NCBI GenBank assembly: GCA_013314775.1 | Contig: JABUFB010000009.1 | Span: 124,001 to 188,000, forward strand | Direction of reading: 5' to 3' | Source: Armatimonadota bacterium | GTDB lineage: Bacteria > Armatimonadota > Zipacnadia > Zipacnadales > JABUFB01 | DNA: 64,000 nucleotides | Shown: positions 2,850 through 50,627 of the stretch, one piece after another | Position numbering within the stretch: position 1 is the stretch's first letter | Layout of the letters: each line of letters opens with the position of its first letter | Notes under the pieces: model-generated | Seen by the model: only the letters and a program-made list of their open reading frames with translations | Database searches by the model: none | Told to the model about the DNA's origin: nothing | Translations under genes and position numbers: made by a program

Positions 2850-3689
2850 TTACTCTTGTATCTTCCAGGCCGATGCCCCGCCTGACACCACGTTGGTCAT
2901 CGGTGCGTAGTCCACCGTTTCCGCCTCGCCGCCGAGCCTCACGATGACGTCGCGCCATTTACCGGGTTCCGGATTGGCGTCGGTCTCGTCCCGGCCGTAC
3001 CATTTGTGGTGCGCGCGACAGCGGCAGATGATGGTGTTATCAGGGGCCCGCGGGTTGGCAAGGCGCGGGAAATGCCGCCACTTCTTCCCTTCAGACGCCA
3101 GCCAGGCCGGCACTGCGCCGCCCTGTGGCACGAGCATGTTCCAGCCCGGCGGCGTGAGTGTCGAGTCCCACCATGACTCATCCCAGCCGTTGTTGCTGAA
3201 ACCGCCGTAGTTATACGTGATCAAGCACAGGACCGACCCGTTGCCTACCCCGCCGGCAGCCGCCTCAAACCGCCAGTAGTCTGCCTGGGTGGAGTCGGTG
3301 AAAGAGCTGTCCGCGATCCCGTGGATCAGCCCGTTGTAAGTACTGTAGTTCTTGGGCTGATTGCTGACGCCACGCAGGTTCGAGGCGTCATTGGGGCAGA
3401 CGAGGTTCGCGTTTGAGCTCAGGTAGTCCGGGTACAGAGCGCTCACCCCGCCCATGTACATCCACGCGGCATCATCGAAGTAGGGTCTGAACGGATAGCG
3501 GTGATAGTCGGTCTTGTACGCCCGGATCGCTGTGGCGATCTGCATGAGGTTCGCTGAACAACGTCCCTGGCGGGCCTTCTCCTGGACGCTGCTGATAACG
3601 GGCATCAGGATGGCCACCAGGATCGCGATGATCGCGATGACAACCAGCATTTCGATCAGGGTGAATCCGGCTTTCTTCCGACTGTTCAT
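2850..3689 (-). CDS. DUF1559-like pilin-related secreted protein
   Basis: A 279-residue protein starting MNSRKKAGFTLIEMLVVIAI, a textbook prepilin signal with Gly at -1, Phe at +1 and Glu at +5. The helix continues to VAILMPVISSVQEKARQGRC, and the body keeps the pattern ANLMQIATAIRAYKTDYHRYPF found in this family, several Cys residues and Trp/Gly-rich loops. The start at 3689 is set by the signal; the frame is open to 3794 but the extra residues are not signal-like. The ribosome site is weak (GGGGG about 12 bases away). A good intrinsic terminator follows. It lies 209 bases after the prepilin peptidase gene. A role as a major or minor pilin is plausible but not shown. Confidence 0.85.
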   Translation of the reverse strand: MNSRKKAGFTLIEMLVVIAIIAILVAILMPVISSVQEKARQGRCSANLMQIATAIRAYKTDYHRYPFRPYFDDAAWMYMGGVSALYPDYLSSNANLVCPNDASNLRGVSNQPKNYSTYNGLIHGIADSSFTDSTQADYWRFEAAAGGVGNGSVLCLITYNYGGFSNNGWDESWWDSTLTPPGWNMLVPQGGAVPAWLASEGKKWRHFPRLANPRAPDNTIICRCRAHHKWYGRDETDANPEPGKWRDVIVRLGGEAETVDYAPMTNVVSGGASAWKIQE

Positions 3690-3898
3690 TTTGAGGGCAG
3701 GCCCCCTTAGGCTTTGGGCCGAGCGCATGGCGGTTTGAACCGTGGGTGAGCACACATTGCGCGCAGCCACTGACTGATTACCCGCAACCGTCATTCACTA
3801 AACCTTCCACGACAATTGTGCGTATCTTGAGAAAACCACATAGACCCCAGCGTTGTGGCATGATGCGCGATGGTTCGTCGGGCCAATAGCCCTTGGTA

Positions 3899-18187: not shown

Positions 18188-18588
18188 TGCGCCTCGCCCC
18201 CCGGCTTGCAGACCTGACCGCCGCTCCGCGCGGCCCGTTCAGTGGCCAGTATCTCCACGGCGTGCGCCAGTTCGTCCACAACATTCAGCAATTCTGCGGT
18301 TCCGGACACCTCGAAGACCCGCCGGACATTGGGCCTGTCGCAGGCCACCGCCATGTCCCCGTTCTTCTCGCCCGCGCGCTTGGAGCCGCCGATGAGAATC
18401 CCCAGGCCCACGCTGTCGATGAACTCCACCTGGCGCAGGTCAACCACCAGCCAGGAGAAGCCCTCGTCAAGAGTCTGGGTGACGGCCTCCATGAACTGTG
18501 GCGCAGTATACGCGTCCAGTTCGCCCTCCACGCGGATGGTCTGAAGCCAGCCGTCCACGACGTCAACATCAATTCTCAAGTCACTCAC
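18184..18588 (-). CDS. rsbV: Anti-sigma factor antagonist (STAS domain, RsbV-like)
   Basis: A 134-residue STAS-domain protein. The domain covers about residues 12-110 with VEGELDAYTAPQFMEAV and the phosphorylation loop VDLRQVEFIDSVGLGILIGG, where the Ser after ID is the expected RsbW target. The unphosphorylated form would bind RsbW and free the sigma factor. A C-terminal extension of about 20 residues (ATERAARSGG and onward) is longer than in typical RsbV. The GTG at 18588 overlaps the rarA stop by eight bases; the upstream frame, still open, lies inside rarA. A TTG at 18579 with AAGGGTGAG before it is a possible alternative start. Confidence 0.9.
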   Translation of the reverse strand: MSDLRIDVDVVDGWLQTIRVEGELDAYTAPQFMEAVTQTLDEGFSWLVVDLRQVEFIDSVGLGILIGGSKRAGEKNGDMAVACDRPNVRRVFEVSGTAELLNVVDELAHAVEILATERAARSGGQVCKPGGEAQ

Positions 18589-19933
18589 CCTTGGAGGGAT
18601 CTGCCGCCTCGCCGCTTTCCCCGGGCGCCGCTCCACCAGCGCCCTTCAGATCCGCGAGATAGGCCGCTATCCTGGCCTCGCGGGGGTTATCCCCGGGATG
18701 GTAGAACTGAACCGCCTCAACCTGGGATGGCAGGTACTGCTGCGCAACCCACCCCCGGGGGTGGTCGTGGGGGTACAGGTAGTCTTCCCGGGAATCCCCG
18801 GGCCGGGGCCCGCCTGCGAGATGAGGGGGCACGGCCTGTGCTCCCTGCTTGCGCACCAGTTCCCGGGCCTGCGAGATCGCCTTGTACACCGAGTTGCTCT
18901 TGGGCGAGACGGCAATGTGGATCGCCGCCATCGCCAGCGGGATCTGAGCTTCCGGGAGCCCTACGTATTCTACCGCATCGGCGGCGGCCACCGCAACCCT
19001 CAGCGCCGTGGGGTCAGCCAGACCAACGTCCTCCGCCGCCTGGATGATGATCCGTCTCGCGATGAAACGAGGGTCCTCCCCCGCCTCAAGCATCTTCGCA
19101 AGCCAGTACACAGCGGCGTCGGGGTCCGACCCGCGCATGCTCTTGATGAACGCCGAGATCGTGTCATAGTGCTCCACGCCGTCGCGGTCATACTTCAGCA
19201 CCGGTCTTTGCAGGGCTTCCTCGGCATCGGCAATGGTGATAACCCGTTTCCCGTCCCCGTCCGGCTGCACACTCAGTGCCGCCAGTTCCAGGGCGTTGAG
19301 CGCCGCCCGGGCATCCCCCGAAGCTCCCCGCGCAATATGCTCCAGCGCGTCCGGGGCAATTTCCACCTCCAGACCGCCCAACCCTCGTTCACTGTCCTCA
19401 AGGGCCCGGCGAAGCAGCAGCTTTAGCTCCTCCTCGGTGAGCTTCTCCAGGGCGAACAGCCGGCAGCGGGACAGGAGCGGGGACGTCACACTGAAGTAGG
19501 GGTTCTCTGTCGTGGCGCCGATGAGAGTGAAGGTTCCATCCTCAACATGGGGCAGCAACTGGTCCTGCTGGGCCTTGTTCAGCCGGTGAATCTCGTCCAC
19601 AAACAGGATCGTGCCCACATCATTGAGCGACAGGCGCTGACGGGCCTGCTCAGCGATGGCGCGGATCTCCTTCACACCGGCACTCACCGCCGACAATTCC
19701 ACGAAATCCCGGCTCGTATGGTTGGCCACGATCCGCGCAAGAGTGCTCTTCCCTGTCCCGGCCGGTCCGTGAAAAATGATGGATGGCAGACGGTCGCCCT
19801 CCAGCGCGCGTCGCAATACAGACTGAGGTGCCACCAAATGATCTTGCCCGACCACCTCGTCCAGGCTGACGGGTCTCATGCGCGCGGCGAGGGGAGCATT
19901 GGAGCCGGTGGGAGAACGGTCAAAGAGATTCAT
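18581..19933 (-). CDS. rarA: Replication-associated recombination protein A (RarA/MgsA)
   Basis: A 450-residue AAA+ ATPase that acts at stalled replication forks, related to eukaryotic WRNIP1. The start MNLFDRSPTGSNAPLAARMR gives the usual N-terminus. Walker A is GPAGTGKSTLARI, Walker B FVDEIHRLNKAQQD, sensor 1 IGATTENPYFSV, and the Arg finger region SPLLSRCRLFALEKL. The C-terminal MgsA tetramerisation part includes HYDTISAFIKSMRGSDPDAA and YLYPHDHPRGWVAQQYLP. The frame runs back to 20254 but the extra 107 residues lie across the proposed RNA gene and look non-coding. It heads the overlapping operon that continues into rsbV. Confidence 0.97.
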   Translation of the reverse strand: MNLFDRSPTGSNAPLAARMRPVSLDEVVGQDHLVAPQSVLRRALEGDRLPSIIFHGPAGTGKSTLARIVANHTSRDFVELSAVSAGVKEIRAIAEQARQRLSLNDVGTILFVDEIHRLNKAQQDQLLPHVEDGTFTLIGATTENPYFSVTSPLLSRCRLFALEKLTEEELKLLLRRALEDSERGLGGLEVEIAPDALEHIARGASGDARAALNALELAALSVQPDGDGKRVITIADAEEALQRPVLKYDRDGVEHYDTISAFIKSMRGSDPDAAVYWLAKMLEAGEDPRFIARRIIIQAAEDVGLADPTALRVAVAAADAVEYVGLPEAQIPLAMAAIHIAVSPKSNSVYKAISQARELVRKQGAQAVPPHLAGGPRPGDSREDYLYPHDHPRGWVAQQYLPSQVEAVQFYHPGDNPREARIAAYLADLKGAGGAAPGESGEAADPSKGE

Positions 19934-19950
19934 GGCTGCGGCCCCACATA

Positions 19951-20149
19951 GGGAGACAAGAGGGCCCCGCAAGTGCCGTGCATCCGCGAGTTTTTGGACC
20001 CATAGGCAAGGTGGGTGCTCTCTCGCGCAAGTTGCATATCCCGCGAAGCGGGACGTCGCGCCCGGCGCGAAGCCCGAGCTCCCTTGGCATGGGTGTTGGC
20101 CCAAAACTGTTGTGATGTCACGCGCAGCGCAGGGCGACCTCTTGGTGTC
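19951..20149 (-). ncRNA. ssrS: Candidate 6S RNA upstream of rarA
   Basis: About 200 nt with strong long-range pairing lies behind a consensus promoter. On the plus strand, arms read from the outside in are GACAAGAGG with CCTCTTGGTGTC, GCCCC with GGGC, GTGCATC with GATGTCAC (one bulge), AGTTTTTGG with CCAAAACT, ACCCAT with ATGGGT, and CAAGG with CCTTG; small hairpins sit at the tip. Between the second and third helices both strands stay largely unpaired, which would be the central bubble. A closing stem, bubble and long terminal arm of about 200 nt is the 6S plan that mimics an open promoter. My recollection is that 6S genes lie next to rarA (ycaJ) in several phyla. I infer the identity; no covariance search was possible. 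A structured rarA leader is the alternative. Confidence 0.55.
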
Positions 20150-20152
20150 TTT

Positions 20153-20181
20153 ATTATACCCCCTCGCGGTCCCCCATACAA
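20153..20181 (-). promoter_or_regulatory. Promoter of the candidate 6S RNA / rarA transcript
   Basis: On the minus strand TTGTAT (20181-20176), a 17-base spacer of GGGGG-ACCGCGAG-GGGGG and a perfect TATAAT (20158-20153). Transcription would start at about 20146-20149, at the outer end of the self-complementary RNA. The G-rich spacer is unusual. Confidence 0.8.
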
Positions 20182-20224
20182 GGAGGCGACCGGGCTTCGC
20201 GGGGGGAAACAGGGTCCCTGGAAT

Positions 20225-20296
20225 GTCAAGAGCCGTCTCGGTTTCCATCCTCACGCATGATTGCCTGCGCCCTGGGCCTGGGACGTGGCTCTTGAC
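20225..20296. repeat. Inverted repeat flanking the padR promoter
   Basis: GTCAAGAGCC (20225-20234) and GGCTCTTGAC (20287-20296) are perfect complements, 52 bases apart. The right arm contains the first five bases of the padR -35 element. The left arm carries a TTGACA-like hexamer pointing the other way, but no -10 follows it. It could be a looping operator or a cruciform. Confidence 0.6.
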
Positions 20297-20341: not shown

Positions 20342-20352
20342 GGGTGATTGGT

Positions 20353-20745
20353 GTGCCACGAGGAGGCCCTCGAGGAGGGGGGCGAGGATTCGGGTTAGGT
20401 GGACCGGGCGGTTTCGGGCGGTTCCCGAGAATGGTCGAACCCGCGCTGTTATACCTGCTGGCAAAACGCGACAGCACCCACGGTTATGATCTCATTCAGC
20501 AGGCCAACGAACTTGGAATCTGCGAGACCACGGTGGATGCGGGAGCGGTCTACCGCGCTCTTCGGCAGCTCGAAGATGCGGGCCTGGTGGAGTCCACCTG
20601 GGATACCACCGGCGGCGGTCCGGCCCGGCGGGATTACGCGGTGACCGATGCCGGCCGGGCGCATCTCAAGGCCTGGGCAGACGTCTTGCGGCGTAGAGCC
20701 GAGATGATGTCCCGCTTCGCGCAGTTGTGCGATGAGATCGACTGA
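20353..20745 (+). CDS. PadR-family transcriptional regulator
   Basis: A 130-residue winged-helix regulator. A Gly/Arg/Pro-rich tail of about 25 residues (MPRGGPRGGGRGFGLG) comes before the PadR domain: MVEPALLYLLAKRDSTHGYD, then DAGAVYRALRQLEDAGLVES and the wing RRDYAVTDAGRAHL, with a C-terminal dimerisation helix. The GTG at 20353 has AGGGG eight bases upstream; the GTG at 20344 has none and would leave almost no leader. It is read from a strong promoter overlapped by a palindrome and is followed after 11 bases by the metallo-hydrolase gene, so it very likely controls the cluster. The ligand is unknown. Confidence 0.9.
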   Translation: MPRGGPRGGGRGFGLGGPGGFGRFPRMVEPALLYLLAKRDSTHGYDLIQQANELGICETTVDAGAVYRALRQLEDAGLVESTWDTTGGGPARRDYAVTDAGRAHLKAWADVLRRRAEMMSRFAQLCDEID

Positions 20746-20756
20746 GGCGCGGCGAC

Positions 20757-21626
20757 ATGGTTGAGCACCCGAGAGTCTTGCGGATAACAGTGCTGTGCGA
20801 CAACCGGGCCCGCCCGGGTTTCGGCTGCGAGCACGGCTGGGCTGCGTTAGTGGAGTCCGCTGGACGCCGGGTGCTGTTGGACACGGGCTCGGGGCCCACG
20901 CTCTTGCCCAATGCGGACCGGGCGGGGGTGGACCTGACCACGCTGGATGCCCTGGTGCTCAGCCACGGGCACTACGACCACACAGGCGGGCTTGCGTCAC
21001 TCCTGGAGCGGTCGGGGCCGCTGGACGTGTGGGCTCACCCGGCAGCCTTCGACCCCACCTTCGCCGACCGTGGCCAAGGGGATGCCCGGTACATCGGAAT
21101 GCCCCTTGCCCGGGCCCAGTACGAGGCGCTTGGGGCGCGGTTCCACCTGTCGGAAAACCCGGTCGAGGTGGCGCCCGGAGTGCGGACCACCGGCTTCGTG
21201 CCCCGCTCCGTCACCGGCAGTGTACCGGCGCCGCACCTGCTCAGGACCCGCGACGAGCTGATCGGCCCCGATGATTTCGCCGATGACGTGTCCCTGGTCC
21301 TCAGTGCGGGCGAAGGCATCTTCATCCTCACCGGCTGCGCCCACGCGGGACTGCGCAACATCCTGGCAAGAGCCCGGGAAATCGCCCCGGGCGCTCCGGT
21401 CTGGGCAATCGTCGGCGGAACGCACCTGGTAGCGGAGCCGGTTGATGAAGTCCGAGCGCTTGCGCGAGACCTGGCGGCGGCTGGTCTGTCCGCAATCGGT
21501 GCCTCTCACTGCACAGGGGAGACGTCCGCGCAGGTGCTGCGCGAGGCATTCCCAGGCCGCACGCTGGACATTGCTGCCGGGGTGGTCCTGTCCGTCTCCC
21601 CTGACGGCGTGATCCGAATCTCGTAA
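20757..21626 (+). CDS. Metallo-beta-lactamase-fold hydrolase
   Basis: A 289-residue protein of the MBL superfamily. The metal motif SHGHYDHTGG is intact, and later ligands are in LTGCAHAGLRNI and GGTHLV, with a final SHCTGETSA block. The pattern DTGSGPTLLPNADRAG followed by the motif, and the Cys-Ala-His segment, matches the branch annotated as dihydropterin-ribofuranosyl-aminobenzene-phosphate synthase-like, known from methanogens and anaerobes. The real reaction is not known for most bacterial members. It sits between padR (11 bases) and the first MinD-ferredoxin ATPase (44 bases), all on the plus strand, so one operon is likely. Confidence 0.85.
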   Translation: MVEHPRVLRITVLCDNRARPGFGCEHGWAALVESAGRRVLLDTGSGPTLLPNADRAGVDLTTLDALVLSHGHYDHTGGLASLLERSGPLDVWAHPAAFDPTFADRGQGDARYIGMPLARAQYEALGARFHLSENPVEVAPGVRTTGFVPRSVTGSVPAPHLLRTRDELIGPDDFADDVSLVLSAGEGIFILTGCAHAGLRNILARAREIAPGAPVWAIVGGTHLVAEPVDEVRALARDLAAAGLSAIGASHCTGETSAQVLREAFPGRTLDIAAGVVLSVSPDGVIRIS

Positions 21627-50568: not shown

Positions 50569-50627
50569 ACCCCACGGCGTTCGGCTCGACGATGAGTGCA
50601 ATTACCCAACCCCAAGGGGAGAGAAAC

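Follow-up and report, generated by a model that had tools for sequence, protein, structure and literature searches.

A 6S RNA gene ahead of rarA and a SigB/F-type sigma-factor module in Armatimonadota

The 6S RNA gene and the genes that follow it

We analysed a 64-kb stretch of Armatimonadota DNA, referred to here as the window. On its minus strand, a 6S RNA gene is followed in the same orientation by rarA, rsbV-like, rsbW-like and sigma-factor genes, and then by genes for an AI-2E-type transporter and alaS. We scanned the whole window with the Rfam families. The results showed a match to RF00013 (6S) at 20138-19960 (minus), with 78.3 bits against a cut-off of 46.4 (E 9.6e-14 for the whole window), which spanned the complete model (positions 1-187), and RF00013 was the sole family at or above its gathering score. 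From this match and from covariation, the gene is predicted to cover 20146-19951 (minus), about 190-195 nt including an extended closing stem, and the 6.1-Mb genome holds no further copy. We also built a model from 29 sequences of the order, and it scored 185.6 bits on the minus strand and 13.4 on the plus strand; as the window's own sequence was among the 29, this result is informative only for the difference between the two strands. The region 20143-19951 (193 nt) folded into one long rod at -88 kcal/mol, compared with -74.2 ± 4.9 for shuffled sequences (z -2.84), which taken alone would be moderate evidence.

We then read the promoter directly from the sequence. A perfect -10 hexamer, TATAAT, lies at 20158-20153 (minus), after a 17-nt spacer from TTGTAT at 20181-20176 (minus), which matches TTGACA in three of six positions. 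The transcription start expected from this promoter is near 20146. Among the order relatives, TATAAT or a 4-5/6 match occurs in the corresponding position, indicating that the promoter position is conserved, and a TTG lies 17 nt ahead of the -10 at most loci. Judged by its sequence, the 6S gene thus has its own housekeeping-type promoter (TTGTAT-17-TATAAT). The preliminary description of this DNA had proposed a 6S RNA of roughly 200 nt, folding end to end behind a perfect TATAAT; the hexamer and the rod were both found, and the identity is supported by the full-length result of the Rfam search together with the covariation in relatives given below. We conclude that 20138-19960 is almost certainly a genuine, canonical 6S RNA gene, and that the Armatimonadota 6S described here adds a new member to a known family.

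The SigB-type promoter pattern GTTT-N12-16-GGGTA was found neither upstream of 6S nor inside the operon, and a SigB-driven 6S promoter is therefore unsupported; a GGGTAT does overlap the -10. Elsewhere in the window, four matches to this pattern were present (3246-3270, minus; 3411-3434, plus; 3779-3803, minus; 50603-50627, minus) versus 0.5 expected by chance, three of them inside 560 bases near 3.2-3.8 kb. From their sequence, these four sites could be targets of the sigma factor encoded in the operon. A gene for a PadR-family regulator (20344-20745, plus) diverges from the 6S promoter and is followed by a gene for a metallo-beta-lactamase-fold protein (20757-21626, plus), both retained in the nearest relative.

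The first protein gene downstream of 6S is rarA/mgsA, encoding an AAA+ ATPase (19933-18581, minus; MgsA_C PF12002, E 1.5e-62). Its start, MNLFDR, aligns with those of relatives, and its start codon is about 18-24 nt past the likely 3' end of 6S at the closing stem. An RsbV/SpoIIAA-like anti-anti-sigma (STAS) gene follows at 18588-18184 (minus; TIGR00377, 80.2 bits, cut-off 53.5), with a likely GTG start at 18588 within a longer open reading frame that begins at 18636. The RsbW-like anti-sigma kinase gene (18187-17762, minus) matched HATPase_c_2 with E 5e-29, and RsbW models gave it 110-123 bits, under their equivalog cut-offs. The sigma-factor gene (17765-16998, minus) scored 273.7 bits against the SigBFG model TIGR02980 (cut-off 234.35), and it cleared only the cut-offs of this subfamily model and of the broad sigma-70 models; equivalog-level identity was not reached for SigB (214.8 vs 315 bits) or spore SigF (181.1 vs 321.45). 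Since both proteins lie under the equivalog cut-offs, the sequence comparison places the sigma factor in the SigB/F/G family and the kinase as RsbW-like, short of an exact sub-type. With STAS, HATPase and SigB/F/G-family sigma genes adjacent, the three form an RsbV-RsbW-SigB/F partner-switch module. The genes overlap by 8 nt (rarA/STAS, with the STAS start taken as 18588), 4 nt (STAS/rsbW) and 4 nt (rsbW/sigma). No terminator-like site was recognised in 20260-16900 by a crude scanner; its negatives are weak, because at the threshold used it overlooked even the evident promoter of 6S.

The rarA reading frame is open upstream across 6S in the window (18581-20254, minus). We compared this frame among relatives, and the results showed that stops interrupt it over the 6S region in 27 of 32, and that most of the order shares a rarA start of the MNLFD or MDLFE kind. 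A longer rarA, and with it a coding reading of the 6S region, was ruled out because the frame is closed in these relatives. The stretch had been called not recognisably coding in the preliminary description, which agrees with the stopped frame of the relatives, whereas in the window itself the rarA frame happens to be open. Automatic annotation may call rarA too long (18581-20254, minus) and enclose the 6S gene in it.

Covariation and anatomy of the 6S RNA

Covariation across orthologous loci had been named in the preliminary description as a check on the proposed helices. We projected the structure from the Rfam alignment to the window and counted pairs on a sequence-only MAFFT alignment of 47 Armatimonadota relatives. 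The results showed that 82.9% of the cells could pair, compared with 74.4% after shuffling and 38-47% with one arm slid. Changes on both sides occurred in 34 of 51 pairs (27.2 when shuffled), and the covariation score was 0.306, compared with 0.170 for shuffled and 0.08-0.13 for slid alignments. No shuffle matched any of the observed values, and a subset of 29 sequences from the order gave a similar result, so the check came out strongly in favour of a covarying rod around a large central bubble. The 47 relatives were retrieved with the same Rfam model and are to some degree selected for fit to the structure; such selection is unlikely as a full explanation, because the contrast is large and the alignment was built from sequence only. 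A chance fold, or a piece of rarA coding sequence, would be compatible with the open frame in the window; the covariation and the frame stopped in 27 of 32 relatives refute this reading, and we assign it a negligible probability.

We further examined the closing stem, which extends beyond the Rfam model. Read by eye from the fold and sequence, a 5' arm CAAGAGG (20144-20138, minus) can pair with a 3' arm CCUCUUG (19963-19957, minus). The register shifts by about one base between families, and we therefore replaced a fixed register with a free pairing test and permutation. In the 29 order sequences, the cognate flanks paired at -10.8 kcal/mol, compared with -7.9 ± 0.5 when re-paired, and 0 of 5000 permutations were as good as the cognate sets.

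The 5' strand of the central bubble, the part that would mimic an open promoter, lies at 20097-20084 (minus); it is unpaired in the Rfam-projected structure, and the helices flanking it covary. The 3' strand (20012-20002, minus) is also unpaired in the Rfam structure; together with its flanks (ACCC...GGGU), it has the potential to fold into a small hairpin. RNAalifold on the 47 relatives paired part of this strand as a hairpin, and a small hairpin in the 3' bubble strand has been reported for B. subtilis 6S-1 (PMC8876501). Within the 5' bubble strand, the predicted product RNA (pRNA), 5'-GUUGGCCCAAAACU (20095-20108, plus), would be templated from C20095 of the 6S RNA. Known pRNA hallmarks, as given in PMC8414754, are an adenine directly upstream and GG at positions 4/5 or 5/6. 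All 47 relatives have the immediate upstream A and GG at 4/5, so that a start site for pRNA is predicted in the 5' strand of the bubble throughout this set, and 27 of the 47 have AA at positions 9/10. This conserved start region also bears on whether the locus could encode an Ms1-like RNA, which would bind core polymerase instead of the sigma-A holoenzyme. Ms1 is described as structurally related to 6S RNA (PMC9130861). The direct match to the 6S family, the conserved pRNA start region and the failure of any other Rfam family to reach its cut-off in the window all argue against an Ms1-like RNA, which we consider extremely improbable.

Distribution of 6S and of the gene row in Armatimonadota

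Among the best rarA matches, those with informative names came from Armatimonadetes or Candidatus Zipacnadia metagenome-assembled genomes, which places the window in Armatimonadota. To describe the distribution of 6S, we searched 251 sampled genomes of the phylum. Scanning with RF00013, under filters that lose weak matches, gave matches at E<=0.001 in 103 genomes, 89 of them above the cut-off, and the order-built model found 6S in 107. Among the nearest 41 genomes, 30 had 6S, and so did 18 of the 19 with a completeness of 90% or more and a contamination of 5% or less. Where order relatives gave no 6S match, the rarA-sigma contigs inspected mostly stop close to the sigma gene or to rarA, and in one genome (G193) 6S is cut by the contig end; the missing cases in the order mostly look like assembly gaps.

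The row 6S-rarA-STAS-RsbW-sigma is almost invariant within the order. Among 100 genomes of the phylum that carry 6S, a same-strand rarA comes directly after it in at least 49, from 18 family-level groups; the sigma gene comes after 6S in at least 41, and rarA and sigma both do in at least 39. These are lower bounds, as contigs are short and the counts come from the matches listed. In one genome (G045), for example, rarA was not among the matches listed and went uncounted, yet the locus reads 6S, rarA, STAS, RsbW, sigma. The placement of 6S ahead of rarA and a SigB/SigF-like operon, noted in the preliminary description for this locus, is therefore widely conserved in the phylum. In one family (genome G063, locus L182), 6S stands directly before a small open reading frame and then STAS-RsbW-sigma-AI2E-alaS; rarA was not found there, yet 6S still precedes the switch and the sigma gene in this family. 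In families f18, f26, f28 and f39-f41, 6S is elsewhere, although the link between rarA and sigma often persists. The 6S-sigma linkage is therefore not obligatory and was lost or never gained in some families.

We also examined 69 rarA loci beyond the best Armatimonadota matches (L062-L130) and left out one (L068), a Zipacnadia contig ending inside rarA. In the remaining 68 other-lineage loci, the sequence flanking rarA (up to 1.5 kb on each side) contained no STAS, RsbW or sigma gene. In three loci outside the best Armatimonadota matches (L067, L076 and L079), one of them labelled Bacillota, a same-direction 6S lies directly upstream of rarA.

Most loci of the order have 17-190 nt between 6S and rarA, and the two are 2.4-4.2 kb apart in G184 and G127. 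These distances bear on two other readings of the locus. The structure could be chiefly a cis-acting 5' leader of rarA and not a free RNA, as the closing stem and the start of rarA are 18-24 nt apart and no terminator was recognised between them. The fit to RF00013 is full-length, however, and pRNA hallmarks, needless for a leader, are present in 47 of 47 relatives; moreover, 6S is away from rarA in many genomes and ahead of other genes in G063, and the gaps vary from 17 nt to 4.2 kb. We consider a leader very unlikely. Alternatively, 6S could be a separate, fully terminated gene, whose place before rarA and the sigma module would be inherited gene order with no shared transcription or joint function. 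In Firmicutes, 6S adjoins rarA and both are reported as monocistronic (PMC8414754), and the kilobase gaps in G184 and G127, together with the families in which 6S is elsewhere, also suit a separate gene. The mostly short spacing in the order, the lack of a recognised terminator in the window and the retention of 6S ahead of the sigma module in G063, where rarA was not found, point the other way. Given both sides, we regard a separate gene as quite possible, if short of probable.

Comparison with known systems and proposed role

In E. coli, ssrS and ygfA are co-transcribed, with 6S first. The arrangement proposed here likewise opens with 6S and continues into a protein gene; ygfA differs in function, and the E. 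coli unit is without a sigma factor. In the Firmicutes operons rsbV-rsbW-sigB and spoIIAA-spoIIAB-sigF, the genes for anti-anti-sigma, anti-sigma kinase and sigma factor follow in this order. The module in the window has the same order; in contrast, it is preceded by 6S and rarA, and its kinase and sigma factor lie under the equivalog cut-offs.

The 6S RNA itself resembles the B. subtilis 6S-1 (bsrA) type in its whole-length model match, its rod with a central bubble, its pRNA template with an upstream A and GG near 4/5, its potential 3' bubble hairpin and its proximity to rarA. It differs in that the closing stem is about 6-8 pairs longer than the Rfam model in many members and in that a SigB/F partner-switch module follows. 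The preliminary description had likened the placement ahead of rarA to that in other phyla, which is partly right. According to PMC8414754, the association itself is published for B. subtilis and lactic acid bacteria, whereas rarA there is opposite in direction (B. subtilis) or upstream (lactic acid bacteria), and not downstream in the same direction as in the window. The lactic acid bacteria share the place beside rarA and a conserved pRNA motif; their 6S lies between rarA upstream and uspA downstream, a terminator follows it in most species, and no sigma-factor module is described in the sections consulted (PMC8414754). The position of ygfA next to the E. coli 6S gene is also given in PMC9130861. 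In Synechocystis, 6S (ssaA) influences the exchange of housekeeping and alternative sigma factors, and the abstract of that work mentions no sigma operon genetically linked to 6S (PMC5721685).

We found no description of a 6S RNA in Armatimonadetes/Armatimonadota in the open-access literature searched. By title and abstract, the open-access papers retrieved on 6S with RsbW or partner switching dealt with no such linkage. The gene row 6S-rarA-sigma module is likely to be novel.

RNAs of the 6S family bind the housekeeping holoenzyme as promoter mimics and are released by pRNA synthesis. By analogy with the family, the 6S RNA described here would accumulate as growth slows, imitate an open promoter and thereby bind the housekeeping sigma-A RNA polymerase; when nutrients return, the polymerase would copy about 14 nt of the RNA (GUUGGCCCAAAACU), which would thereby be released. 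From this family knowledge and the conserved anatomy, we infer that 6S may trap the housekeeping polymerase and act as a second growth-phase switch, as the preliminary description had suggested.

The short spacing, the overlapping genes and the failure to recognise a terminator suggest that some transcripts begun at the 6S promoter would read through into rarA and the sigma module, with the 6S portion cut or trimmed from the longer transcript. We lean slightly towards such partial read-through. One promoter would then supply both a polymerase-restraining RNA and a stress sigma factor, the latter presumably kept inactive by RsbW until stress. More tentatively, in much of Armatimonadota, 6S and a complete stress-gated SigB/F-type module might form one conserved transcription unit, set together from one promoter. 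Read in this way from the gene arrangement, 6S and the sigma module could be two coordinated ways of moving RNA polymerase off housekeeping promoters.

As the 6S family is widespread, a member of it in this poorly studied phylum was to be expected. Through its place in the conserved row, the RNA is tied to a sigma factor of the general-stress type and to the switch of that factor. Co-transcription, if it occurs, would be a simple genetic means of coordinating the exchange of sigma factors, and it would suggest asking whether 6S favours the use of alternative sigma factors far from E. coli.
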